A stretch of DNA of 64,000 nucleotides from Bacillus sp. FJAT-22090 (lineage in GTDB: Bacteria; Bacillota; Bacilli; Bacillales_A; Planococcaceae). Position numbers and translations under genes: made by a program. The notes beneath the pieces were generated by a model. It made no database searches, was not told the DNA's origin, and saw nothing but the letters and a program-made list of their open reading frames with translations. The stretch lies in contig NZ_CP012601.1 of the NCBI RefSeq assembly GCF_001278755.1, positions 2,418,001-2,482,000 on the forward strand. The letters are read 5' to 3'. Below are positions 14,958 to 54,903 of this stretch, one piece after another (within the stretch, counting starts at the first letter, position 1; each line of letters opens with the position of its first letter).

Positions 14958-17264
14958 TTAGTTTTTCACAAATACTTTTGAATCAATAGTAGTTAATTTA
15001 TATTTTACATCATCTGTGTTTACTACGCCTGAAACGCTCTCAATGTTAAAGTATTTCGAAGCTGCTGTAGCATCAGTTTGGAAGTTAAAGTTTGCAGATG
15101 GTGCAATTTTTGTAATTTCTAGCTCTCCAGCAAGTGAATTAGATGTATGCTCAACTGATAAAGTAGCAGTTCTACCAAAACCGTCATTTACAACTATTGT
15201 TCCCTTACCGTTTTTAAAATCATGAGCAAACAAAGGATTGTTTAAGAAATCGAATGTTAAAGTATCACCAATACTTAAACCTGCAGTTGCATTATCATTC
15301 CAAGTAATTGTTGAAGCAGTAAATGCTCCTACTTTTAAGTATGCATGATCAAATCCACCAGCAGTAATTACATCATCAACTTTTTGACCTTTACCAACTT
15401 GTACTGCATATAATTTATTAATTTCATCTTGAGTTAAGTTAGATGCTTGAACAACCCAAGTACCATTTGAAGAAACAACAGCATCTCCAACTAATACATC
15501 ATCAGCTGTTGCTAAATCAGAAGTATCTGATACTGCTGTTGAAATATCAAGACCAGTGTCTGTTTCTTTATAAATAAACACTTTTGCTCCCGCTTCACCT
15601 TCACCAGTTAAACGGTAAGTTGTTCCATCATAAGAAATAGCTTTTGAAGGAGTAGTAATTTCGATATCTGCATTAGCATCAACATCATCAGTAATTGTCC
15701 AAACTGAGCTATTAACTTTATTATCTTGGTAATCTGCATAATACTCATCATTTTTAGATAATCTTGTTTTAAATACATCAAGTGTTACTATTTTACCTTC
15801 AATAATGAATGTATCATTGCTATCAAAGTTATATTTAATGCCATTTAAAACAGCATAATTATTTGTCTTATCGACGAAATCATAGTCAGCAGTTCCAAAA
15901 GTTCCAGCCGGAACAGTTCCAGTTGCACCTAACTCGTAGAAATAAGTCAAGCCACCTTTAACAGTTTTAGAAGTGTCTTCTAAGTTTGTGAATACAGGAT
16001 AAACTGCAGATGTATCTGCTCCTCCAGAAATAACTATTGTTACTTTTCCATCAGTTCCTGCATAGATTTTTGGTAGAACAGCAGCTGCTGCATATCCAAC
16101 TCCATCTACGTTACTGATGAAAGCTGTTCCAGCATAGTCTGATCCGTCAGCATTTTTCAATTCAATACCAACTTCTCCAGTGTAGTTAGCTTTATCAGCA
16201 TTTTTAAGAGATACTGTGTAAGTTCTTGTATTAGTTGTTTCAAGACGTGCTGTATCAGCAGCATCAACAACTGTTGAACCATCTGCAGGATTAGCCGCTA
16301 CAGTAAATGTTTTACCAGTAGCTACACCTTGGTAAGATAAAGCGTAAGTTTTTCCAGCTGCTTGATCAGTTGTTTTTAAAGTAACTGTTTTTTGGTCAGC
16401 TGCAATAGTAGCAGATTGTACTAAAAGACCATTATCAAATGTAAATTGTCCAGCTGCTAGTAATGCATCAGGAGTTTTAGAGAATTTTACAGTAACTGTG
16501 TTTTTATCAACACGTGCAACTGAAAGAACTTGTAGAGGCATAGCAGTTGCTACATCATCAACTGATTTTTGTAAAGAAGTTTCCCATTTAAGAACATTAG
16601 CGTCAAGAATTGCTTGAGCATCTGTTAAGTTTTGAGACGCTTCTTCTAATTTACCAGCTTTAGAGTTTGCTGCAGCTGATTTAGCAAGCATATTAACAGT
16701 AACTTCGTTTTTAACTGAAGCTACTAGTTTTTCGATAGCTGGTTTTACTTCGTTACGGATGCCGTCACGAGTAGATTGACCATATACGCGGTCTAGAAGA
16801 GCCGCTTGTTTACGGTATTCACCAGTTGCTTTGTGGTATGCAGTTTCTACTTTTTCGATGTCGTCAGATTTAATAGCAGCATCTAAGCTAGCTGTTAATT
16901 CAGCAATTTTTACACTTGAAGTGATTGCATCGATGTAAGCTCCAGCGCGTTTAACTTGTAATTTTGGTTCAACAAGTTTAGCTGTTACGCTTAATTTTTC
17001 AGATGCTGAAAGTTTAGCAGCTGCTGCTTCTGCTGCAGCGATTGCTTTTTTCGCAGCGTTGTATTGAGCGTATGGTTGTGTTTTGTAGTCAGCAGAACCT
17101 TCTACTGAGATAGCCCATTTTAATACTGTACCTGCGTTTTGTGCGTCTGTTACTAATTGGTTTACATTAGTTGCTGCGTCTGCTTGTTGTGCTGGCGCTG
17201 CTGCAACGAATGCTGAAGCTGCTACTGCAGTTGAAGCTGCAATTTTGATAGCTTTTTTCTTCAT
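14958..17264 (-). CDS. Major SbsC-like S-layer protein
   Basis: 768 residues from the ATG at 17264, which has GGGAGA 10 nt upstream; an upstream in-frame extension to 17348 lacks a ribosome binding site. Signal peptide MKKKAIKIAASTAVAASAFV, cleaved near QQADA. The N-terminal helical domain (about 31-260) is Ala/Lys-rich and includes LLDRVYGQSTRDGIRNEVKP, the block found in Geobacillus SbsC, whose N-terminal domain anchors to secondary cell-wall polymer. Ig-like beta domains follow. Very regular codon choice, low Cys/Met, high Ala/Thr/Lys, double hairpins downstream and a long upstream region all fit a highly expressed S-layer lattice subunit. The other three paralogues have a less biased composition and are probably alternates. 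Confidence 0.9.
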   Translation of the reverse strand: MKKKAIKIAASTAVAASAFVAAAPAQQADAATNVNQLVTDAQNAGTVLKWAISVEGSADYKTQPYAQYNAAKKAIAAAEAAAAKLSASEKLSVTAKLVEPKLQVKRAGAYIDAITSSVKIAELTASLDAAIKSDDIEKVETAYHKATGEYRKQAALLDRVYGQSTRDGIRNEVKPAIEKLVASVKNEVTVNMLAKSAAANSKAGKLEEASQNLTDAQAILDANVLKWETSLQKSVDDVATAMPLQVLSVARVDKNTVTVKFSKTPDALLAAGQFTFDNGLLVQSATIAADQKTVTLKTTDQAAGKTYALSYQGVATGKTFTVAANPADGSTVVDAADTARLETTNTRTYTVSLKNADKANYTGEVGIELKNADGSDYAGTAFISNVDGVGYAAAAVLPKIYAGTDGKVTIVISGGADTSAVYPVFTNLEDTSKTVKGGLTYFYELGATGTVPAGTFGTADYDFVDKTNNYAVLNGIKYNFDSNDTFIIEGKIVTLDVFKTRLSKNDEYYADYQDNKVNSSVWTITDDVDANADIEITTPSKAISYDGTTYRLTGEGEAGAKVFIYKETDTGLDISTAVSDTSDLATADDVLVGDAVVSSNGTWVVQASNLTQDEINKLYAVQVGKGQKVDDVITAGGFDHAYLKVGAFTASTITWNDNATAGLSIGDTLTFDFLNNPLFAHDFKNGKGTIVVNDGFGRTATLSVEHTSNSLAGELEITKIAPSANFNFQTDATAASKYFNIESVSGVVNTDDVKYKLTTIDSKVFVKN

Positions 17265-17637
17265 AAACTTGTGATCTCCCTTCGCTTGTGTGTTGCAATT
17301 TTTTTTAGCGTGTAACATCGGTCGCTTGATCGCGTCCAATATCGTCACCCTAACTAATATATAAGTTTACAAAACTCATATACTAAAATCAACTAAAATC
17401 TTCAAAGATTACCAGTTTTTTATAAGGATGACTGTATGAAAGCACCAAGGACAACATCACATATTCCATATTACAGTAATATTACCAATCACGCTAGTCT
17501 TTTTTTATGAATATTTCTTACTATTTTTATTTTTATAGATTTTACTTAAAATTTCTTTAATACAACTATTTAAAATTTATTTTAATTTTATTTAATTTAA
17601 TGCGTGCAATTTTAAAATTATGTGTTATGATTTACTG

Positions 17638-17808
17638 TATAGAAGGTTACTTATAGATGTGTAACGCCGTAAACTTGTTTGTACATTCATTAGTGTGCAG
17701 CCTTCTACTTCCTTCGTTTTATCGCTCAAGAAAAGAAGCATCTGAACATCGGATGCTTCTTTTCTTATTTTATAAGGGTTTTGGTCTATTGGCCAAAACC
17801 CCTTTTTT
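17638..17808 (+). ncRNA. Candidate small RNA with two intrinsic terminators
   Basis: An extended -10 element TGTTATGAT (TATGAT at 17626-17631) predicts a plus-strand start near 17638. The predicted RNA begins AGAAGG (17641-17646), complementary to CCTTCT at 17701-17706. It contains a small GTTAC/GTAAC hairpin and then a strong 15-bp terminator stem (about 17728-17767). A second stem GGGTTTTGG/CCAAAACCC plus T7 follows at 17776-17808. No plausible open frame of useful length lies inside. No minus-strand gene explains plus-strand terminators here. It lies divergently upstream of the major S-layer gene. It matches no RNA family I recognise; existence is inferred. Confidence 0.4.
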
Positions 17809-22132: not shown

Positions 22133-22222
22133 TTGTTTACCCCGTTTCTAAAGTAGTAGTGTATAAGATTTGGTGCGATTTTCCTAAAGTGTATCATAGA
22201 AATTTGTTGAAGCAATAGGTTT

Positions 22223-22285
22223 GTCGCGTTCGCGAGGTTGTTTGTCGTGTTCATTGTGAAGTTTGTCTCGTTCAACCATATTTTA
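22223..22285 (+). repeat. 21-bp phased GTCTCG-type array, short copy
   Basis: Three degenerate units begin at 22223 (GTCGCG), 22244 (GTCGTG) and 22265 (GTCTCG), exactly 21 bp apart. Same period and lead motif as the large array at 39.3-39.7 kb. It lies between argD and the SRPBCC gene. Confidence 0.6.
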
Positions 22286-26750: not shown

Positions 26751-27815
26751 TTAGTTGTTTCCATTTCCGTTATTGTTACCATTACCATTGCCTTTATTGT
26801 TTTTTTCTTGATCGTTTTGGGATTTTTCATTTTCTTTTTGTGTTTTTTCTGCATCTTTTTGCTGTTTTTCTTTTTCTTTATTCATTACTTTTGCTTGGTT
26901 TTCGGTAGGTTTACCGTTACTATTTTGTTGATTTCCTTTTTGTTCCGGCAGCTTTTCTTTTTGTATATCCTGCTTTTCTTTTATCATTTCTTGTTGTTGT
27001 TTAATTTTTTCTTGTTGCTCTTGCTGTTTTTGTTCAATTTTTTCTTGTTGCTCTTGTTGTTTATCTTTATTGGATTGTTCATCTATTTTGTTTTGGTTGT
27101 TGCTGGATGGTATCTTTTGCATATTACTCTCCTGGTTTACTGGAATACCATTGTTTCTAAGATTATCTTTTATTTTATTTTCCTTCTCAACTTCTTTTAA
27201 CTTTTGAATGGATTTGTCGTGTTTGTCAGCTTCTTTACGTTCTTCAATGGTACTTTCATTAACTATCCATTCTTTGTCGGTGTGCTCGCTTTGTACTTCT
27301 TCAACTGCTACTTCTATAATTTCTTTCATATCAGATGATTCTTTATTATTTTCGTATATAGTTGTTATTGCTATTTCTTTTGCAAGGGGACTTAGTTGCT
27401 TTACTATGTTTGACAATACGATGTCCACTTGGTTCCCCTCCCAGTCTTCGAGCATGATAGGAGCTGTATCGTTTAGCGACCGAAGCGTCACGACTAATCC
27501 CTCTTGATCAACACCTAATTCTACTGAATTGTTTGCATCCAATTGAACATAAGCTAGTGCTGTTCCTGGGTTTGGGATAAAGGATGCTATCACAAATAGA
27601 AGAAACATTGCTGCGACAATAACTGGAGCGAGAAAAGAAGGTTTTGTCCATTTCCTACTAAGAGTAGTTACCCCCATTAAACGGAATTCAACTTCTTGTC
27701 CAATCTCAGGATTCGAAATGATGGGAACACCTCGAAGAAATTTACCTTCCTTCGTTAGAAAAATCATATATTTAGTTTTCTTTTCGCAAACAATGCCTTT
27801 ATAAGTGCGCATCAT
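26751..27815 (-). CDS. rsgI: Anti-sigma-I factor
   Basis: 354 residues. The RsgI N-terminal domain (about 1-52, YKGIVCEKKTKYMIFLTKEG) binds sigma-I. One membrane helix lies at about 64-84 (APVIVAAMFLLFVIASFIP). An extracellular folded segment follows (about 88-185). The last ~165 residues are a low-complexity Q/K/E/N tail ending in a GNGNNNGN run. In B. subtilis the disordered RsgI tail is needed for sensing cell-wall defects; the tail here fits that role although its sequence is repetitive. The start overlaps the sigI stop by 4 nt (ATGA), so the two are coupled. Confidence 0.9.
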   Translation of the reverse strand: MMRTYKGIVCEKKTKYMIFLTKEGKFLRGVPIISNPEIGQEVEFRLMGVTTLSRKWTKPSFLAPVIVAAMFLLFVIASFIPNPGTALAYVQLDANNSVELGVDQEGLVVTLRSLNDTAPIMLEDWEGNQVDIVLSNIVKQLSPLAKEIAITTIYENNKESSDMKEIIEVAVEEVQSEHTDKEWIVNESTIEERKEADKHDKSIQKLKEVEKENKIKDNLRNNGIPVNQESNMQKIPSSNNQNKIDEQSNKDKQQEQQEKIEQKQQEQQEKIKQQQEMIKEKQDIQKEKLPEQKGNQQNSNGKPTENQAKVMNKEKEKQQKDAEKTQKENEKSQNDQEKNNKGNGNGNNNGNGNN

Positions 27816-28838: not shown

Positions 28839-28952
28839 TGCATTGTTTTGTTTCCCTTAAATAATAGACGAAATCATACGTATCTACACGTTTTTACTTC
28901 ATCTAAAGAACTGGGTTAAATAAAATTAAAATAGTGTATCGATAAAGAGGAT

Positions 28953-29651
28953 TTATTTGTCTTCTTTATTTTTTTTATTTTCTTGTTTTTCAGCTTTTTG
29001 TTCTTCTTTTAAAGCTTTTCTTTCTTCTTTATGCTCTGCTTGAAGTGCTTTACGCTCTTCTTTTTGCTCAGCTTTAAGAGCTTTGCTTTGTTCTTTTGCA
29101 GATTCCTTTGCAGGTTCTTCTACAACAGGTTTTTCAGCTACTGGTTTTTCTACTACTGGTGTAGGTTCAACTGTTACAGGTTTTTCTTCAACTGGTTCTT
29201 CAGTTTTAGGTTCCTCTGTTTTTGGCTCTTCAGTTTTTGGTTCTTCTACTGTAGGCTCTTCAGCTTCTTTTTGTGCAGCCTCAAATTTAGCGATTGCTCT
29301 TTCAGCATTACGTAAAATTGATGCTTTAGCAGTTTCACTTCCAGCATTTTCATATGCTTTTGCAAGTGCTGCTAGATTTCCAGCCGTGTAACCTTCAGGA
29401 ATTTCAGGGAATTCACTTTCTGGTTTTGTTTCATCTTCAGTTTTTGTATCATCTGTTGAAGGAGTTGTTACTACTGGTTTAACAGTATCTTCTGTTGTAA
29501 CTTCTGTTTTTTCCTCTGTAGAATCAGAGTTCAATTTACTCAAATTTACAGTGTCGAACAAATTTTCATTTGCCCATGCATAACCTGATCCTGTTACCGT
29601 CAATGTTGCAACTAATAAAGCTGCGCTTGTTTTCTTCCATTTCATCTGCAT
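28953..29651 (-). CDS. Secreted Glu/Lys-rich low-complexity protein, putative SigI target
   Basis: 232 residues from the ATG at 29651 (GAGGTGAT 7 nt upstream). The open frame continues to 29699, but that start would sit at or before the predicted transcription start. Signal peptide MQMKWKKTSAALLVATLTVT, cleaved near YAWA. An acidic/Thr-rich linker follows, then a short helical block (GYTAGNLAALAKAYENAGSE) seen in Bacillales proteins of unknown role. Then come EEPKTEEP repeats, a Pro/Val-rich stretch, and a Lys/Glu coiled-coil-like tail (KALKAEQKEERKALQAEHKE). No enzyme motif. Its promoter matches that of sigI, so it probably acts in the cell-wall stress response. Confidence 0.75.
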   Translation of the reverse strand: MQMKWKKTSAALLVATLTVTGSGYAWANENLFDTVNLSKLNSDSTEEKTEVTTEDTVKPVVTTPSTDDTKTEDETKPESEFPEIPEGYTAGNLAALAKAYENAGSETAKASILRNAERAIAKFEAAQKEAEEPTVEEPKTEEPKTEEPKTEEPVEEKPVTVEPTPVVEKPVAEKPVVEEPAKESAKEQSKALKAEQKEERKALQAEHKEERKALKEEQKAEKQENKKNKEDK

Positions 29652-29831: not shown

Positions 29832-30761
29832 TTAACTGCTTTTAGGTTGTTGCATTTTTTTCTTTTTATGTTTTTTCCACATGTCTTCGGCTGCTCCAGA
29901 TCCTAGCATGACACCTGCTACGATTAGGAAGAGCCCGATGAAATGGCGATAGTTTAGTATTTCACCTAAGAAGATGGCAGATAGAATCAAAGAGAATAAT
30001 GGATTTAAATTCATAAATATCGCCGATTTTGTTGCTCCTGCTTTACCTACTGCGTAGTTGTACATGAGATGCCCAATGGCTGTCGATAGTACGGCAGATG
30101 CTAAAAATAGAACCCAAAAAAGAGGTTTTGTTTCAGCAAATGTGTAGATTCCTCTTGGTTCTTGCACTAAGCTGATAACGATTAACACAACTGCTCCGAT
30201 TAGTAGCATATAGGCAGTGAGCAATCTTGGGTCAAGTGTTCTCGCTGCTTTGCTTACGATCATATAGCTCAGCACTTGCGCTAAAATTGCGAGGAACACA
30301 TAGAAATCACCAAGGTTGGCTCCGCTGGACTCTCCTCCTCCTACTAGGATGGAAACCGTCACCCCAGATAAACCAAGTAAGAGGCCAAGCCACTGAAAAC
30401 GTGATGGGAAGTACTTTAATATAATCGCACCTGAAATGGCGGTAAGCATTGGACCCGTTCCTAAGATTAGACCTCCATGGGTCCCACTTGTAATCGCAAG
30501 CCCCATGTTCAAAAAATAATGATGGAGCACGACATTGGAGAGAGCCCCTAATAATATATACTTCCATTCTTGTTTCGTTGGCATTCGTAGGAGATTCATT
30601 TTCCATAAAATGACCAGTACTACTAGACCGGCTGTTAAAATTCGAAAAGCCGTTAGGGTAACTGGGGGCACTACTGTTACTAGATATTTAAGTATCGGTA
30701 GGTTTGCTCCCCAAACGAACATGACGAACACGAGCATTAAATATATATTCCATTGCTTCAT
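29832..30761 (-). CDS. DMT-superfamily (EamA) transporter
   Basis: 309 residues with about ten membrane helices arranged as two EamA repeats (about 5-140 and 150-290). N-terminal W-G-x-N (VWGANLPILKYLV) and, in the second half, AVLSTAIGHLMYNYAVGKAG are typical. It is probably an exporter of metabolites or amino acids; the substrate cannot be told. A short basic C-terminal tail (KKHKKKKMQQ) faces the cytoplasm. It lies 15 nt after panF and may be co-transcribed with it. Confidence 0.85.
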   Translation of the reverse strand: MKQWNIYLMLVFVMFVWGANLPILKYLVTVVPPVTLTAFRILTAGLVVLVILWKMNLLRMPTKQEWKYILLGALSNVVLHHYFLNMGLAITSGTHGGLILGTGPMLTAISGAIILKYFPSRFQWLGLLLGLSGVTVSILVGGGESSGANLGDFYVFLAILAQVLSYMIVSKAARTLDPRLLTAYMLLIGAVVLIVISLVQEPRGIYTFAETKPLFWVLFLASAVLSTAIGHLMYNYAVGKAGATKSAIFMNLNPLFSLILSAIFLGEILNYRHFIGLFLIVAGVMLGSGAAEDMWKKHKKKKMQQPKSS

Positions 30762-30776
30762 TTGAGGAACTCCTTT

Positions 30777-32222
30777 TTAAAATTGGTATTTTGTTCTCTT
30801 TATTAATAAACTACAAACGACATATGCAAGTAGCGATAAGGTAACTGGCACGACGACCGTATGCACACCGAATAGATTGCCGTTTGATTGATTGTAAAAA
30901 TGCAAAGCAATATATGAAACAATTCCGGTGATCATGGATGCTACCGCTCCGTATTTATTGCCATAAGACCAATAAAGTCCAAGGACGACTGGCCAAATAA
31001 AGGCTGCTTCTAACCCACCAAACGCAAAAAGGTTTAAGAAAATAAGTAAGTCAGGAGGATTCAATGCTAATAAAAATACAACAGACCCTAATAGAGTCGT
31101 CACCCCAAAGCTTAGATTTTTGACCATTTTCTCGTTTGCATTCGGATTCAGATAGTTAATATAAACATCCTTTACAATAGAAGAACTCACTAGTATAAGA
31201 AGAGAGTCAACTGTCGACATAATCGCGGCAAGTGGTGCAGCAAGTACAATCCCTGCAAGCCAAGCAGGAAGGACCTTTAGTGCCACAAGTGGAATCACCG
31301 TATCTGGAACTTCTACGCCCGGTAAAATAGTGCGTGAAAAAATACCGATTAAATGCATGTTTAGCATAATAAAACCAGTAACAACCGTTCCGATTACAAG
31401 TGCTCTGTGCATAGAGCGAGTGTTTTTATAGGACATTGCACGTACTGCCATTTGCGGAAGTCCAACAACTCCTACTCCGACAAGTATCCAAAAGGAGGAC
31501 ACATACGCTGCGGATAAGTTCCCTTCATTGCCGTATGGCGTTACCAGGTTTGGATTTTCAGCAAGCAGGTCCTGAATAATATTTGGCACGCCGCCGCCAG
31601 CAATTATAACGGCAATCAATAAAATCAACGTGCCAATTACCATCACTCCACCTTGCACAGCATCAGTTACCGCAACTGCGCGGAAACCTCCGATTACTAC
31701 ATAAACTAATACGGACACTGCAAAAATAAATAAGGCAGTTGTATATTTCATACCCGTCAAAGATTCGATTAAGCGACCACCACCGACCCATTGTGCCGTC
31801 ATCGCTGAAAATAAAAAGATGATCATACTAATTGCTGCAAGCAACACAACAGCTGTGCTGTTATAACGAACCTTTAGGAAATCAATTAACGTGATGGCAT
31901 TATATCGTCGAGCTAAAATTGCAAACTTCTTCCCTAAAATAAGTAAAACAAAGTAACCCGTCACTACTTGGGTCATCGCAAGCAAAACCCAACCAAACCC
32001 CATCGTATATGCTGTTCCTGGCCCACCAAGAAAACTTGAAGCACTTCCATACGTTGCAACCATCGTCATTGCCAGAACAAAGCCGCCAAGCTCTCGTCCA
32101 CCTAAAAAGTACTCCTGCAAGAATCCCCCAGTAGAGGATTCCAGCTTTTTACTAGACCAAAATCCGATGATAAAAATAATTGCGAGAAAAATAACAAGAG
32201 GGATAATAACGCCTATATTCAC
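30777..32222 (-). CDS. panF: Sodium/pantothenate symporter
   Basis: 481 residues with about 13 membrane helices of the sodium:solute symporter family. SSS signatures include GGRELGGFVLAMTMVATYGS near the N-terminus and GGFRAVAVTDAVQGGVMVIG. It imports pantothenate with sodium for coenzyme A synthesis. The assignment to PanF rests on similarity and on the overlapping YhdT-type gene upstream, a pairing also known in enterobacteria. The start overlaps the yhdT-like stop by 4 nt. Confidence 0.88.
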   Translation of the reverse strand: MNIGVIIPLVIFLAIIFIIGFWSSKKLESSTGGFLQEYFLGGRELGGFVLAMTMVATYGSASSFLGGPGTAYTMGFGWVLLAMTQVVTGYFVLLILGKKFAILARRYNAITLIDFLKVRYNSTAVVLLAAISMIIFLFSAMTAQWVGGGRLIESLTGMKYTTALFIFAVSVLVYVVIGGFRAVAVTDAVQGGVMVIGTLILLIAVIIAGGGVPNIIQDLLAENPNLVTPYGNEGNLSAAYVSSFWILVGVGVVGLPQMAVRAMSYKNTRSMHRALVIGTVVTGFIMLNMHLIGIFSRTILPGVEVPDTVIPLVALKVLPAWLAGIVLAAPLAAIMSTVDSLLILVSSSIVKDVYINYLNPNANEKMVKNLSFGVTTLLGSVVFLLALNPPDLLIFLNLFAFGGLEAAFIWPVVLGLYWSYGNKYGAVASMITGIVSYIALHFYNQSNGNLFGVHTVVVPVTLSLLAYVVCSLLIKRTKYQF

Positions 32223-38814: not shown

Positions 38815-39207
38815 ATGCCTTTTCATGAACATATTCGTGAATATCGGGAACAATTAGAAATCACACAAATCGAAGCAGCTGAGCGTTTAGGCATTGATCA
38901 TTCCGTTTTATCTAAATATGAATTAGGTAAATTGGCGATTCCCCTCGATTTATTGCCAGACATTCGAAGAGTTTATGCTATTCCTAAGGAAAAATTTATA
39001 GATATGCTGGAAGACAAACTTGGTAAAAGTAGAAATCCTGGCTTAGAGGCAAGAGAAAACAAGATGCGTTATGCTGCTGCTCTACAAAATGAATACATGC
39101 CATACATTATGAATTCAAAAGAGTTTCGACTTTTTATGTCTAAATTAAATGCTTTAGACAAGAAAGAAGCGAAGAAACTTTTAACTGAAGCTATAAAAAA
39201 TAATTAA
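38815..39207 (+). CDS. XRE-family helix-turn-helix protein
   Basis: 130 residues; AAGGGGG is 7 nt before the ATG. Helix-turn-helix about 6-60 (EITQIEAAERLGIDHSVLSK), which is the CI/SinR-like layout. The C-terminal region (about 70-130) is helical, with a conserved-looking NEYMPYIMNSKEFRLFMSKL. Likely a DNA-binding repressor of unknown target. A hairpin including AGCTTATGCT/AGCATACGCT with T7 follows at 39206-39268. Confidence 0.75.
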   Translation: MPFHEHIREYREQLEITQIEAAERLGIDHSVLSKYELGKLAIPLDLLPDIRRVYAIPKEKFIDMLEDKLGKSRNPGLEARENKMRYAAALQNEYMPYIMNSKEFRLFMSKLNALDKKEAKKLLTEAIKNN

Positions 39208-39300: not shown

Positions 39301-39743
39301 GTCTTGGTTCTAGTTAGATTGGTCTCGGTTAGCACTTAATTTGTCTCGGTCTAAGCTGGATTAGTCTCGTTTAGCGACAATTTGGTCTCGCTTCCAGTGG
39401 AAATGGTCTCTTTCTGACAATTCCTAATTAAAGTATATTTTTCATTACATGAAGTTAACTCTTTACTATGAGAAATAGTCTCGCCTAGCACTCAATTAGT
39501 CTCGGTCCAAGCGGGATTTGTCGCGGTTAGCGATAATTTGGTCTCGCTTCTAGTGGAAATAGTCTCGTTCTGACAAATAATGTCTAATTAAAGTAATTTT
39601 CTTCATTACATGAAGTTAACTCTTTACTATAAGAAATAGTCTCGCCTAGCACTTAATTTGTCTCGGTCCAAGCTGAATTGGTCTCGGTTTGCGTCAATTT
39701 GGTCTCGCTTCCAAAGGTAATGGTCTCTTTCTGACATTTACTG
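39301..39743 (+). repeat. Large array of 21-bp GTCTCG-led units in three superblocks
   Basis: Unit starts with GTCTCG (or close) occur at 39301, 39322, 39343, 39364, 39385, 39406; then 39478, 39499, 39520, 39541, 39562; then 39639, 39660, 39681, 39702, 39723. Spacing inside each block is exactly 21 bp. The loose unit consensus is GTCTCG, a variable core, then AATTT/AAATG. Blocks share a five-unit order with cores such as TAGCACT, CCAAGC, TAGCGA, CTTCCAGTGG and TTCTGACA. Between blocks lies the conserved leader GAAGTTAACTCTTTACTA. Stop codons in all frames rule out coding. It fills the gap before ywqB. Confidence 0.9.
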
Positions 39744-39872: not shown

Positions 39873-41453
39873 TTGAACCTTACTTCTTCCCAAAAACTAG
39901 CAAACCATTATAAAGAAAATATCGAGAAGTCCATGCAGACGTTTGAGAAGAAGTTTCATCCTGCCATTTTAGAGGATGAGGAGCTTATTCGTCGTGCTGC
40001 TTTTTTTGTTCGTAACAATGCTGTGCTTGTAACGAATTTTTATCCACAAGAACACCGGGTGGATTTTATCGTGAGAGATGTCAGCAGTTTAGAGGTCTCT
40101 TACAATATTTTAGAAGATACTTTTCACTGTCCGTGTCCCATGCATAAGCCATGTCGGCATATTGTAGCGGCAGTTTTTTATTTGTATCAGCAAAATGAGT
40201 CATTATCGACATGGATTTCTAATTGGCGTTCTACTACGGATCAGGCACAATTGAAGCTACTGAGAGACGAGCGAAGTCCAAGAAGCTGGGATATTCTGAT
40301 TGAGAACTTTTTCCGTAAATTTATTTCCAGTTATCCACCGAATAGCTTTTATCTTTTAGAGTTCGCGGTTCATGATTTACAGACGCAAATTCGCAAATCT
40401 CGGCCTTTTGAACGGGAATGGCAGCCAATTTTCGATGTATATGTTAACTTTGTCGTCTTAATGAAGGTTTGGCCGTATTTAGAACCATTTGCAGAGTCCA
40501 ATATGCGAAATCGTGTGCTTCATTTTCTGAACGAATATATAGAGGATTTAGATGACTCACTATCTCAGCTTGCTTCAAAGCCAAGACTATTTGCTGCGGA
40601 TTCATTTTACGACGAATTAATGAAGCGAGTTCGCCATTTCTATTTTGAGATGGAAACACTGTTGAGTTATCGAAAGCATGTCTATTTGTCTTTTTGGGAT
40701 GCCCTAGTGACAGATAAGGCTACTCGTGAAAAGGAAGTAGCTTATTTGCAGGCACTCGATAAAACAGAAGATGATATTCATCTAAATATGGTACTTCCCT
40801 ATTTTTATCTCACATTGTCTCGAATGGACGATTTAGTAAATGCTGCTGAACAAATGGAGACAGTACAGCTGTTGGAATGGGTCGAAGTTTGCGAGAAGGC
40901 ACTTCATTCTTCCAATAAAGAACTTGCTAACCAGCTTGCTCGAAAGTTATTGTCACACATACCTTCTTATTTAAATGAATTTGCCCAAAATCCATCAAGA
41001 GTGATGTTAATTCGTAGATTGGAATTGCTTTTTGATGCCATTCAATTAGACACAAATGAAATGGAGAAACTATACCAATCATTTGGCTTATATGGAGTTC
41101 AGGCGTATTCAAATTTATTAATCAAAGAAAGACGTTACCAGGACTGGATGGCTCTCCATCATTCTGCTAATTCGTCACTGGAGTATGCCGAAGCTTGTGG
41201 TCTTCCTATCGTCAAAGAAGAGGCACCTGAAGTATTATTACCGCTCTATCATCATTATGCGATGCGCTTTCTATTGGAAAAAAACCGCTATAGCTATAAA
41301 CAAGCCGTACGAATTTGGAAGAAAATGAAGCAAATTGCGAAAAAAACAAATGACACGGATTATTGGAATCAATATGTAGATACTATCCGGGAAAAATATC
41401 GCCGTCTACGTGCATTACAACAAGAAATAGAGAAAGGAAATTTGCCATTATGA
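39873..41453 (+). CDS. ywqB: SWIM zinc-finger protein YwqB-like
   Basis: 526 residues from TTG at 39873 (AGGAGA 7 nt upstream); a longer frame to 39837 has no ribosome binding site. Around residue 80-95 the SWIM motif C-x-C-x(n)-C-x-H is seen in FHCPCPMHKPCRHIVAAVF. The remaining protein is alpha-helical and repetitive. SWIM proteins bind nucleic acid or protein and are often paired with SNF2 helicases. It overlaps ywqA by ATGA, as in B. subtilis ywqB-ywqA. The exact role is not established. Confidence 0.85.
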   Translation: MNLTSSQKLANHYKENIEKSMQTFEKKFHPAILEDEELIRRAAFFVRNNAVLVTNFYPQEHRVDFIVRDVSSLEVSYNILEDTFHCPCPMHKPCRHIVAAVFYLYQQNESLSTWISNWRSTTDQAQLKLLRDERSPRSWDILIENFFRKFISSYPPNSFYLLEFAVHDLQTQIRKSRPFEREWQPIFDVYVNFVVLMKVWPYLEPFAESNMRNRVLHFLNEYIEDLDDSLSQLASKPRLFAADSFYDELMKRVRHFYFEMETLLSYRKHVYLSFWDALVTDKATREKEVAYLQALDKTEDDIHLNMVLPYFYLTLSRMDDLVNAAEQMETVQLLEWVEVCEKALHSSNKELANQLARKLLSHIPSYLNEFAQNPSRVMLIRRLELLFDAIQLDTNEMEKLYQSFGLYGVQAYSNLLIKERRYQDWMALHHSANSSLEYAEACGLPIVKEEAPEVLLPLYHHYAMRFLLEKNRYSYKQAVRIWKKMKQIAKKTNDTDYWNQYVDTIREKYRRLRALQQEIEKGNLPL

Positions 41454-44164
41454 TACAACCTTTATCTATTACAAAAGAGCTGCCCTTGAAAATAAATGTG
41501 ACAGAAAACGGGAACTTCCGCTTAATATCTATTGGTACATCAGCTGAACAATGGGTTCCTTCCTTATATATCAATCATCGCCAAAGTTTTTTTGGACTGC
41601 AGGCACAAATCGAAGAGAATGCTCTGATTGCAACTCCTGTTGAAATGATGGAGATTTTCTCAGGGAAAGCCCATCCTTTTATAACGTTTACAGGTGATAA
41701 TCATGATTCTAATGAGTGGCTTCGAACTTTTAAAGAAGCGGCAACTACTTGGTCATCTCCTGATTTATGGAGCCAGCTTAATATTGATGGAGTTAACATT
41801 GAAGTAAATGCACCTCTCGAGGAAAAAGGAAAAATACTTATTGCAAATGCTGTCAAACAAAAGCTTTTTCAAGCAGGACTGACAATGGAAGATGTCCCAT
41901 CGCTTGTTCCTTTCTTCCAGCAAGGTGGATGGCCAATTAAATCACAGGCTACTCATCCAAGCTTAATGGTGGCTATACGGTTATCTGAACCAGATGAATT
42001 TGATGACACATGGTTGTTGGAAACAGTAGTTCGTGGCAAAAAGAGCAGTGTGTATTGGACACCTTCCTTTCGGAAAAAAACTTTGCCAATTAAGGATGCT
42101 TTACCAGATAAATGGAATACTTTTAGTGAATATATTGCAGAGACACAAGCTAAAATTTTCTCGCTCATATCTTCTATTGACCCATCTAACTTAAACATAT
42201 TCTTTTCTTCCCCATTGGCAGATGAGGAAGTACGTGTCTTCCTTAGAGATGACCTAGTGAAATTACAGGCGCTTGGATTCGAGGTTATCCTTCCGGCTTG
42301 GTTGAAAGCAGTGAAAGAAACAAAAATGCGTGTAAAAACCATTGCTCAAACAGCAAATACTTACAAAACGGCTGCTGGTCTCGATGAGATCCTAAAATTT
42401 AACTGGAGCTTTTCTTTAAATGGGCAGGAAATATCTGCAGAGGATTTTCAAACGCTAGTGAATGAAAATCGTTCTTATATTCAAGCAGGCAATGAATGGT
42501 TCCGTATTGATGCAGCATGGATGCATGAAATCAGAGAACTCATGAAGAAATCGGAGGATGAAAACTGGACGGTTAAAGAGCTTTTATTCCGAGAGATTCC
42601 CGAAGAAATTGCACTTGCATTAGATGATGATAATGATCAGTCAAATGAAGATCCTTTATTCGAATTTGAAATGCAAAAGTCTCTGAAATCATTGATGGAT
42701 CAGTTATCAGAGAAAAAAGGATTTCCTGAAATCCCGATCTCGCCAAATTTGTTGACAACATTGCGTCCTTACCAACAGCTTGGTCTTGACTGGCTAGTGT
42801 TTATGCGAAACGATAAATTCGGAGCTTGTTTGGCCGATGATATGGGACTTGGGAAAACAGTACAGCTAATCTCATACTTATTGCATGTACATGAAAAGGA
42901 TGAACAGCCAACTCCGTCTCTTATCATCTGCCCTACATCTGTCCTTGGAAACTGGCAAAAAGAGCTTGCAAAGTTTGCACCATCTTTAAAAGTACAGACA
43001 CATTATGGATCTGGCCGTACGAAAGAAATTGATATGACAGCGGATGTTGTCATCACGACTTTTGGTACTGCTATGCAAGATATTGAGTCTTTGGAAGAAA
43101 TCGTGTGGGCTAGTGTCACACTGGATGAGGCTCAAAATATTAAAAACATGCATACAAAACAATCACGTGCCATTCGTAAACTGAATGGTGCACACCATAT
43201 TGCGCTAACTGGAACACCTGTTGAGAATAGATTGTCTGAGCTTTGGTCTATTTTCGATTTTATTCATAAAGGGTACTTAGGCTCTTTCCGTAAGTTCCAA
43301 GAAAATTATATTGTACCGATTGAGCGCGATAATTCAGAATCCATTAAGCATAAGTTACGTGTAAAAATCCAACCGTTCTTACTAAGAAGAACGAAGCAAG
43401 ATCCTGAATTACTTCTTAACTTGCCTGAAAAACTGGAGCAACGGGAATATTGTGCGTTAACTACTGAGCAGGCTGCTCTATATGAATCGCTTATACAAGA
43501 AACGGTTAGTAAACTTGATACGCTCAGCGGCTTTGAGAAAAAAGGACTTATATTGAAAATGCTAAGCAAGCTTAAACAGCTATGTAATCATCCTGCCCTT
43601 TATTTAAAAGAGCCATTTGATGATGCAGAAGATATGCTCGATCGTTCCGAAAAACTTGCACGTATTGTGACAATGGCGGGAGAAATCGCCGCTAGTGGAG
43701 AGCAGTGTTTAATCTTTACTCAATATATTGGAATGGGCCACTTGTTGCAGCATTGCCTGACAGAGCTATATGATATTGATGCTCCGTTCTTAACAGGCAG
43801 TATGCCAAAAAATCAACGTGACCATCTTGTTGAAGCGTTCCAAGCTAAAGAGTTTCCAGTCTTTCTTTTATCATTAAAAGCAGGTGGAACTGGATTAAAT
43901 TTAACCGCAGCAAGCCATGTATTGCACGCCGATCGCTGGTGGAATCCGGCTGTTGAAAATCAAGCAACTGACCGTGCTTACCGTATCGGACAAACGAACT
44001 TTGTTCATGTGCATAAATTTATTACAATCGGTACAATTGAAGAAAAAATAGACAAACTTCTTGTTGAAAAACAAGCATTATCGGAAGAATTGATTCATTC
44101 TAGCCAATGGATTACCGAAATGTCCGACACCGATCTAAAGGATCTTTTGACTTTATCGATCTAA
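41450..44164 (+). CDS. ywqA: SNF2-family DNA-dependent ATPase/helicase
   Basis: 904 residues from the ATG at 41450 (AAAGGA 11 nt upstream). An N-terminal SNF2-associated domain is followed by the ATPase core: motif I DDMGLGKTVQLISYLL, motif II LDEAQNIKN, motif III ALTGTPVENRLSELW, and C-terminal motifs V/VI LKAGGTGLNLTAASHV and QATDRAYRIGQTN. It translocates on double-stranded DNA and remodels protein-DNA contacts; its specific target is unknown. Coupled to the SWIM protein upstream. Confidence 0.93.
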   Translation: MIQPLSITKELPLKINVTENGNFRLISIGTSAEQWVPSLYINHRQSFFGLQAQIEENALIATPVEMMEIFSGKAHPFITFTGDNHDSNEWLRTFKEAATTWSSPDLWSQLNIDGVNIEVNAPLEEKGKILIANAVKQKLFQAGLTMEDVPSLVPFFQQGGWPIKSQATHPSLMVAIRLSEPDEFDDTWLLETVVRGKKSSVYWTPSFRKKTLPIKDALPDKWNTFSEYIAETQAKIFSLISSIDPSNLNIFFSSPLADEEVRVFLRDDLVKLQALGFEVILPAWLKAVKETKMRVKTIAQTANTYKTAAGLDEILKFNWSFSLNGQEISAEDFQTLVNENRSYIQAGNEWFRIDAAWMHEIRELMKKSEDENWTVKELLFREIPEEIALALDDDNDQSNEDPLFEFEMQKSLKSLMDQLSEKKGFPEIPISPNLLTTLRPYQQLGLDWLVFMRNDKFGACLADDMGLGKTVQLISYLLHVHEKDEQPTPSLIICPTSVLGNWQKELAKFAPSLKVQTHYGSGRTKEIDMTADVVITTFGTAMQDIESLEEIVWASVTLDEAQNIKNMHTKQSRAIRKLNGAHHIALTGTPVENRLSELWSIFDFIHKGYLGSFRKFQENYIVPIERDNSESIKHKLRVKIQPFLLRRTKQDPELLLNLPEKLEQREYCALTTEQAALYESLIQETVSKLDTLSGFEKKGLILKMLSKLKQLCNHPALYLKEPFDDAEDMLDRSEKLARIVTMAGEIAASGEQCLIFTQYIGMGHLLQHCLTELYDIDAPFLTGSMPKNQRDHLVEAFQAKEFPVFLLSLKAGGTGLNLTAASHVLHADRWWNPAVENQATDRAYRIGQTNFVHVHKFITIGTIEEKIDKLLVEKQALSEELIHSSQWITEMSDTDLKDLLTLSI

Positions 44165-50881: not shown

Positions 50882-51154
50882 TAACAATGTTTCTCCTTCC
50901 CTATCTAAACCTTTTTATATGTATAATTCCATACGTCTCTAACTTATAATTTTATCATAGTTTTGTCATAAAAACACTTTTTTTATTGACAAATAAACCC
51001 TTACTATTTTCCTTCTTTTTGTTTTTTATTCAGTAGATGGAGGAATATAGTAGAACTTTATAACTAGTTCTATATCATTTGTGTAACGGTATTATTTTCT
51101 AGTTAACCATTTCTTTCAGATGGGCAAAAAAATATTTTAACAGAACGAGAAAAC

Positions 51155-51217
51155 AAGACCAATTTCGTTTAAACCGAGACCAATTATCCTCCATTCGAGA
51201 ACATTGCTCAAAAAAAG
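51155..51217 (-). repeat. 21-bp phased GTCTCG-type array, between spoIIID and mbl
   Basis: Plus-strand AAGACC at 51155, GAGACC at 51176, GAGAAC at 51197, each 21 bp apart; the motif reads GTCTC on the minus strand. Degenerate short copy. The remaining 50882-51252 intergenic stretch has no gene. Confidence 0.6.
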
Positions 51218-51252
51218 AGTAGCAAAAGGCAACTATTTCAAAAGAAAAAAGC

Positions 51253-51273
51253 CGTGATTTATTACAAATCACG
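51253..51273 (-). terminator. Terminator overlapping the spoIIID stop
   Basis: CGTGATTT/AAATCACG stem covering the last codons and TAA of spoIIID, followed on the minus strand by GGCTTTTTTCTTT. Confidence 0.75.
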
Positions 51274-51537
51274 ACCTTTCCCATCTTCCTTTTTTGTTTT
51301 CCATTTTCGTTTCGTTGCCTCTCCACCGCGTAAATGCCTGACCGATTTATGATACGCAAGTATTTCTTTGACTTCTTTCGCCAATTGCGGATCCACTAAA
51401 TGGAGCCTCTCCGTCAAATCCTTATGAACAGTGCTTTTAGAGTGACCGGTCGTGCTCGCGATGGCACGGACAGTTTTCTTTGTTTCAATTACCATTTCCC
51501 CTAAACGTATGCATCTATGACGTATCGTTTCGTGCAC
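51262..51537 (-). CDS. spoIIID: Sporulation transcriptional regulator SpoIIID
   Basis: 91 residues from GTG at 51537 (AAAGGAAG 6 nt upstream). Helix-turn-helix TVRAIASTTGHSKSTVHKDL and the basic C-terminal helix KSVRHLRGGEATKRKWKTKK are hallmarks. Mother-cell regulator that activates or represses sigma-E-dependent genes during sporulation. Between spoIIQ and mbl as in B. subtilis. Confidence 0.95.
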   Translation of the reverse strand: MHETIRHRCIRLGEMVIETKKTVRAIASTTGHSKSTVHKDLTERLHLVDPQLAKEVKEILAYHKSVRHLRGGEATKRKWKTKKEDGKGRDL

Positions 51538-53427: not shown

Positions 53428-53530
53428 AGAGGTACTATATGCTAGACAGAGAGGGAAAATGAACAAGCAGTTTTAATAGGGAAACTTATGAAGGAATTAT
53501 TTAACATTAAATAACGTAATGTGGCACTTC

Positions 53531-53646
53531 GAGATCAATTGTGCGTTAACCGAGACTATTTTACATAAACTCGAGACTATCTCCAAACAGAACGAGACCA
53601 ATTTGGCTATATCCGAGACCATTTCTCTAAGTAAAGAGCTAACTTA
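53531..53646 (-). repeat. 21-bp phased GTCTCG-type array with leader, 5' of the NERD gene
   Basis: Plus-strand GAGAT/GAGAC at 53531, 53552, 53573, 53594 and 53615, exactly 21 bp apart (GTCTCG on the minus strand). On the minus strand it is preceded by AAGTTAGCTCTTTACT (53630-53646), close to the AAGTTAACTCTTTACT leader of the 39.4-39.6 kb blocks. Between divergent spoIID and the NERD gene; 53647-53810 contains no gene. Confidence 0.85.
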
Positions 53647-54777: not shown

Positions 54778-54798
54778 AAATCCATTTTTTAGCACTTC

Positions 54799-54903
54799 GA
54801 GACAAGACAACTCAAAATCGAGACCAATTATGACCTGGTCGAGACCAATTCCACTGTAATTGCAACCAAATCCTAAGTAAGCAAGACCAAAAATATCCTT
54901 CGA
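54799..54903 (-). repeat. 21-bp phased GTCTCG-type array, 3' of the NERD gene
   Basis: Plus-strand GAGAC at 54799, 54820, 54841, then degenerate GCAACC at 54862 and AAGACC at 54883, each 21 bp apart. It ends in the same AGCACTTCGAGA as the array at 53.5 kb, so the two arrays are directly oriented around the NERD gene. Confidence 0.8.

Follow-up and report, generated by a model that had tools for sequence, protein, structure and literature searches.

Intergenic arrays of many different words that share one 21-bp step, possibly protein-binding lattices, in a bacterial genus

The intergenic DNA of the genome examined in this study (G000) and of other members of its genus carries arrays of short units that recur at an exact step of 21 bp. 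Within this genus the spacing is kept, the words that open the units diverge more slowly than the nearly free cores between them, the units mostly form blocks of 3-6 with a recurring head and tail, and the arrays are found preferentially between convergent genes. At roughly even odds (a probability of about 0.5), these arrays may be DNA-level lattices in which putative binding sites follow each other at intervals of two helical turns (21 bp), so that a bound protein would lie along a single face of the helix. Intergenic repeats of bacteria are, as a rule, grouped according to their sequence, whereas the property conserved here is a length, held across many words and against insertions and deletions, which would point to an unrecognised class of putative DNA-binding lattices.

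The window analysed here (64,000 nucleotides; positions 2,418,001-2,482,000 of the single 4,210,291-bp contig of G000) contains an array flanked on one side by an HTH gene (38815-39207, PF01381) and on the other by a gene for 526 residues (39873-41453), whose product had no match in a search of Pfam and NCBIfam. The first-pass annotation had described 16 GTCTCG-type starts in three blocks with a constant 21-bp step inside each block, and a count of positions confirmed all of this, with 12 of the 16 starts being exact and the other four reading GTCTTG, GTCGCG and, twice, GTCTCT. The arrays of the window and their parts are the following:

39301 to 39426, plus strand: block 1, six 21-bp units (GTCTTG, four GTCTCG, GTCTCT) starting at 39301, 39322, 39343, 39364, 39385 and 39406; the last unit passes into the tail TTCTGACAATTCC
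39453 to 39477, plus strand: head of block 2, AGTTAACTCTTTACTATGAGAAATA
39478 to 39582, plus strand: block 2, five 21-bp units (four of five exact GTCTCG, one GTCGCG) starting at 39478, 39499, 39520, 39541 and 39562
39614 to 39638, plus strand: head of block 3, the head sequence preceding the block
39639 to 39743, plus strand: block 3, five 21-bp units starting at 39639, 39660, 39681, 39702 and 39723, the final unit being the tail GTCTCTTTCTGACATTTACTG
22219 to 22281, plus strand: second array type, GTTTGTCNCGTTC, three units at 21-bp steps followed by the tail-like AACCATATTTTAGG
51154 to 51201, minus strand: degenerate GTCTCG array (TTCTCG, GTCTCG, GTCTTG) at 21-bp steps
53530 to 53619, minus strand: GTCTCG array of five units, the last being ATCTCG with the tail AAGTGCCACATTACG
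54798 to 54887, minus strand: GTCTCG array with the motif at four of five 21-bp positions; a predicted terminator lies 19 bp before it

The three blocks repeat one another every 161 bp (TRF counts 2.6 copies), and for this reason the cores, correctly noted as differing within a block, come back in each block. Enrichment over shuffled sequence was also borne out, as the window contains 21 pairs of the form GTCTCG-N15-GTCTCG (one mismatch or none) compared to 0.04 expected from 100 shuffles; 13 of these pairs belong to the reported array and the other 8 to the rest of the window. Heads resembling AGTTAACTCTTTACTATGAGAAATA were seen by eye ahead of arrays at further loci and in sister species. 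The array at 51154-51201 lies shortly past a terminator-like hairpin (by eye) and is overlapped by an 86-codon ORF on the minus strand (51099-51359). Repeats at 26763-27092, within a 365-codon open frame, and at 28930-29077 have 21-bp and other multiple-of-three steps and are probably ordinary low-complexity coding repeats. In addition, an SNF2-type helicase gene adjoins the 526-residue gene (41363-44164); its best NCBIfam match, the SCO1167/SCO6262-family helicase, is below the cut-off.

Recurrence of GTCTCG at 21 bp throughout the 4.21-Mb genome, as predicted from the window, was observed in 47 exact pairs (31 + 16), which by our own grouping fall into 15 loci, while the reversed control gave none. 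An equal rate of the pattern inside genes, which would have counted against it, was not seen either, with 0 of the 16 merged G000 arrays examined lying within an ORF of at least 300 codons. When steps of 14-30 bp were scanned from each word, 21 bp accounted for 59 of 66, followed by 20 bp (four), 29 bp (two) and 16 bp (one). The unit approximates AATTGGTCTCGGTT followed by 7 bp that are nearly without information, giving 14 informative positions, among which those of the word were chosen by the search itself. Blocks contain 3-6 motif hits, and many of them start after a head like AGTTAACTCTTTACTATGAGAAAT and close with a unit whose tail is GCCATTTACTG or a variant thereof (by eye). Eight of the 15 loci lie within ~0.2 Mb (2.38-2.58 Mb), and 14 lie no more than 0.84 Mb from dnaA, a range of ~40% of the chromosome. 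A terminus landmark was considered for the cluster at 2.38-2.58 Mb and is ruled out, since skew and dnaA place the origin near 3.19 Mb; a dif search in sampled G000 stretches gave nothing convincing (best candidate with 7 mismatches of 28). A role as replication landmarks is conceivable. The G000 loci are skewed to the origin half; this bias is not generalised, however, because the two 21-bp regions sampled in G096 are nearly opposite the origin.

The words of the arrays differ, and GTCTCG is accompanied by TTGGTTGCTCTC, TTTGGGGAACTC, TTCGACCGAT, TTTACTTGC and others. The sister species G041 and G135 contain the word TTGGTTGC at 21 bp in 100 and 87 exact pairs, respectively, in arrays with heads and tails similar to those of G000, and TTGGTTGC pairs were present in 7 of the 19 genus genomes (the reversed control matched 2 of 19, neither being G041 or G135). 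Further words are TTTGGGGAACTC and GCTCGGATA in G041, ACCACATACCCAA in G135, GTTTGTCNCGTTC and TTTTCTGAGAT in G000, and TTTACTTGC, CGCAAGTAAACC, TTTATGGGACACT, CGCAAATT, TCGACCGAT and ATCGGATGG in four more genus genomes. Since relatives keep the step although their words do not contain GTCTC, the methylation or type IIS role that had been suggested for this site appears unlikely to be general. Word-anchored steps of 14-30 bp in the TTGGTTGC family were 21 bp in 316 of 381 cases, the rest being mainly 20 bp (27) and 17 bp (20). Two observations speak against a strict 21, namely the 19-bp step in 25 of 105 cases in GGGGAACTC arrays and the 20-bp second unit common to many G135 elements. Very long GGGGAACTC arrays of ~30-38 units, mostly at 21 bp and often at 19 bp, occur on contig C1 of G041 (L300 1-650; contig 16990-17789 and 30191-30827).

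The word can also differ at a single site. About 600 bp upstream of the 526-residue gene were inspected by eye in the 19 genus genomes, an approach that weak arrays could escape, and arrays were seen in three of them with three different words (GTCTCG in G000, TTGGTTGCTCTC in G041, and GTGCTCTCG at steps of 20, 21 and 21 bp in G147); no array was seen in the other 16, among which G129 has a tail-like fragment. A second site, identified by eye from its flanks, has arrays in G135, G041, G222 and G147. Other genera of the family contain long GTCYCG arrays of 13-23 units with cores of their own (e.g., GTCYCGCGCTCAAGG and GTCTCGGTGGCGCTTATCTGG). Family-wide motif searches matched 7 of 151 genomes (reversed control, 2 of 151) and, in a second search, 11 of 200 (control, 8 of 200); the control also matches because other repeats too yield 21-bp words, and the presence of 21-bp arrays in other genera is based on arrays read directly, not on motif counts. 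At the level of the class, a GTCYCG quadruple was found in 4 of 299 genomes (control, 1 of 299), and the three of these genomes that lie outside the family have what look by eye like near-perfect tandem copies. A motif search of genome contigs returned no Bacillales name among the matches listed (80 of 119 stretches), and no description of such arrays was found in the titles and abstract starts of the papers that searches of the open-access PMC literature listed.

Local self-similarity was scanned at periods of 13-40 bp, and regions were divided according to whether they overlapped ORFs of at least 150 codons. In stretches chosen for their arrays, G000, G041 and G135 had 14, 11 and 17 non-ORF regions at 21 bp, respectively, compared to means of 0.68, 0.20 and 0.08 for the 25 other periods, with a further 2, 8 and 8 regions at 21 bp overlapping ORFs. 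In stretches picked without regard to arrays, by round coordinates or contig starts, in seven genus genomes (720 kb), 13 non-ORF regions were found at 21 bp (G000 1, G041 0, G135 0, G087 4, G096 2, G147 5, G129 1) compared to a summed mean of 0.96 for another period, while regions in ORFs numbered 5 at 21 bp compared to 1.32. The zero counts come from samples of 140 kb (G041) and 120 kb (G135), and other parts of both genomes are rich in such regions. Five genomes from the rest of the family had 2 (G196), 1 (G139) and 0 (G218, G150 and G149) regions at 21 bp, G149 having three at 22 bp, and four genomes outside the family (386 kb) had one region compared to 0.20. These counts establish the 21-bp excess for the genus, with a patchy distribution along the chromosome, but not for the class.

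Tandem copies of whole blocks offer a fair comparison of what is constrained, because array and spacer were duplicated together, and 27 pairs of sister blocks from nine loci were compared (11 loci were given, two of which yielded no pair). Substitutions are alike in arrays (276/2631, 0.105) and in the spacers between blocks (164/1414, 0.116). Length changes other than 21 bp, in contrast, are approximately sevenfold rarer in arrays (8 per 2631 bp versus 29 per 1414; Fisher p about 1e-7 per bp); because the chain finder admits no steps other than 19-23 and 42 bp, arrays with larger interior indels could be split and missed, and the gaps of 1-2 bp that it leaves unfiltered number 5 in arrays versus 15 in spacers. 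Homopolymers are not the cause of this depletion, since it remains outside runs of three or more (5/2173 in arrays versus 20/1128 in spacers, p 4e-6). Five of the eight array gaps fall no more than 9 bp from the array end, two cancel mutually, and one is interior. Gaps of 3 or 6 bp are absent from arrays and make up 7 of the 29 in spacers, and the constraint therefore concerns 21 bp rather than multiples of three. Within the units, words diverge at about half the rate of cores (~77/1179 versus 256/1943, summed from per-locus rates) and were slower in all nine loci with data (ten loci were supplied, one of them with only a single block). Duplications of a whole unit (21 bp) and of a whole block (143-184 bp) also occur. 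That relatives keep one 21-bp spacing with different words suggests that it is the spacing that is preserved.

With genes called from ORFs, 67 of 71 merged arrays had both flanking genes called (one was inside a long ORF, and three had no downstream gene called). Twenty-eight of these arrays lie between convergent genes, 20 lie in tandem pairs and follow the genes, 10 lie in tandem pairs and oppose them, and 9 lie between divergent genes. The convergent share is above expectation, convergent space making up 18% of the intergenic bases across 40 samples (p 7e-6, an optimistic value given that some arrays are related copies), and arrays in tandem pairs lean toward following a gene on the same strand (++ 20 versus -- 10, p 0.10). 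A same-strand terminator was found within 260 bp in 7 of 16, 5 of 11 and 16 of 44 arrays, so that an early impression of arrays coming after a terminator overstated the case; none was found ahead of the reported window array.

The protein lattice is ranked first because a step protected from indels, slow words and freer cores are what a cooperative lattice on one face predicts, whereas decaying minisatellites should collect indels as fast as the spacers do and coding sequence should show indels of 3 bp. A putative protein would contact each word as well as the neighbouring proteins, all on the same face of the DNA; protein binding, with helical phase as the reason for 21, could result in local wrapping or in insulation between converging transcription units. 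The binding platform on one helix face that was proposed at first fits a spacing kept while substitutions accumulate, and the protein part of that proposal stays putative. Since the word varies both between and within genomes, more than one reader or a fast-evolving reader would be implied. Against the lattice reading, the words are too diverse for one reader to recognise them all. More tentatively, the arrays could correspond in bacteria to the satellite DNA of eukaryotes: throughout the genus the lattice, with its 21 bp and single helical face, would be what is inherited, and the word could be exchanged; the word would be rewritten at the same site (GTCTCG, GTTGCTCTC, GTGCTCTCG) as fast-evolving putative lattice proteins change, and the arrays would organise or insulate converging genes. 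If true, word turnover at fixed sites would provide a tractable bacterial model of the satellite-DNA problem.

The main rival to the lattice reading is that the arrays are degenerate minisatellites, functionless tandem duplications decaying in gene-free DNA, with blocks spread by recombination or a mobile carrier, an explanation that we consider doubtful but worth serious attention. Both kinds of duplication described above are consistent with it, as are the patchy presence at the window site (3 of 19 genomes) and the location between convergent genes, where insertions are tolerated. However, it leaves unexplained why many unrelated words have a single period, why length changes are depleted without a depletion of substitutions, and why words are slower than cores.

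It is considerably less likely that the other strand of the arrays encodes, or once encoded, small peptides with a heptad repeat (MALRDQFxxxNRDQF..., MAxRDQxxxERNQ...), with 21 bp representing seven codons. The other-strand reading turns the tail into TAAATGGC and the head into TTCTCATAG, and in TTGGTTGC blocks the minus-strand AGC-AAC-CAA (Ser-Asn) frame has the lowest dN/dS of the six (0.40, compared to 0.54-1.25 in the others; lowest in 6 of 7 loci, values uncorrected for transition bias), which a pure DNA model does not predict and which leaves room for a peptide past. In GTCTCG blocks, however, the corresponding frame is not the lowest (0.63). The first-pass annotation reported stops in every frame, which holds for the whole array and for block 1 but not for the block-3 region alone, where 36 codons are stop-free on the minus strand, the strand of the peptide. 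An array in G012 (L054 4119-4665; GTCTCG) is open on the other strand over its whole 547 bp with a charged heptad repeat, and its translation matches 49 families, largely coiled-coil (of 25 shown, 24 are below cut-offs and PUMA_CC is just above, 30.9 versus 30.1 bits); this open strand could be a real gene in that species. Against a general coding role, stop codons directly follow Arg-Asp in 18 of 80 G000 units and Ser-Asn in 28 of 233 units, stop counts in the reported window array are no lower than in shuffled sequence, the 20-bp and 19-bp steps break the reading frame, and no ribosome site was seen by eye at a normal distance. Coding on either strand is rejected as the main reading because of the in-frame stops and the absence of 3-bp indels.

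More improbable still, the arrays could be ends or internal parts of non-autonomous mobile elements, with the units serving as transposase-binding sites. Dispersed copies with similar cores occur in G135 (23 aligned), and several arrays in G041 are embedded in longer repeats that have imperfect inverted repeats at their ends and also contain a palindromic module (by eye). Most G000 loci, however, have the word and step but not the cores in common (by eye), the 13-23-unit arrays of other genera have no such inverted-repeat frame, and a plasmid and phage search with one 276-bp block query gave no match. Composite intergenic repeats of G041 (L289, L291, L293 and L295) have imperfect inverted ends (TTATAGGGATATTGTGTCTTAA ... 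TTAAGACACAATATCCCTATAA) and enclose a GC-rich palindromic module (GGAAAGCGTCC...) together with one or more 21-bp arrays of different words. It is very improbable that the arrays are transcribed into an RNA on which an RNA-binding protein finds repeated sites, the scaffold considered at first. The same-strand lean of tandem arrays speaks for it; against it, the window array folds no better than shuffles (z -0.86 and -0.29), Rfam gives no match in the window at gathering scores (two at chance level lie below them), and promoter-like sites number 3 compared to 1.7 expected.

Several known systems resemble these arrays in part. REP/BIME repeats of enterobacteria are likewise dispersed and intergenic, but they consist of palindromic units in alternating orientation, whereas the units of the 21-bp arrays all point the same way, have no significant fold in the window, lack a dominant 10.5-bp G/C phase and have species-dependent words. 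As excerpted from PMC6379681 and PMC12393610, some REP/BIME repeats are bound by DNA gyrase, BIME-2 being gyrase-preferred sites, the E. coli gyrase motif (130 bp in total) shows phased 10-bp G/C variation, and highly transcribed operons have an excess of gyrase sites downstream of them. Gyrase-type wrapping, considered because of where the arrays lie, is unsupported because G/C content has no dominant 10.5-bp component in most families: the fraction of the spectral power found at 10.5 bp is 0.15 for GTCTCG, 0.06 for TTGGTTGC, 0.12 for GGGGAACTC and 0.14 for two other genera, and reaches 0.40 only in an 8-unit GCTCGGATA set. Iterons and plasmid centromere arrays are also direct repeats with a fixed step near two helical turns and are read by a cooperative protein. 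The 21-bp units differ in having only ~14 of 21 bp in common and in being scattered over many places in the chromosome instead of marking a single origin or centromere; the 15 loci are dispersed over one chromosome, and the array in the window has as neighbours an HTH protein and the 526-residue protein rather than an initiator gene. CRISPR arrays, in which identical repeats of about 21-50 bp alternate with spacers of foreign origin, share the alternation of a constant word with variable sequence of constant length, but the 21-bp arrays have short words, point-mutated units and cores common to sister blocks, and the block query matched no plasmid or phage. Archaeal Borg elements also have many unrelated intergenic tandem repeats in one genome, which the excerpted source (PMC9879509) describes as perfect copies with 14-38% of intergenic unit lengths divisible by three, whereas the 21-bp arrays have imperfect units and one dominating length. 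Finally, MITEs, BOX, RUP and other small interspersed repeats share short, non-coding, dispersed copies. MITEs have terminal inverted repeats and target duplications, and around some G041 copies imperfect inverted ends were seen by eye. The 21-bp arrays differ from all of these in a fixed inner lattice that outlasts the change of word.
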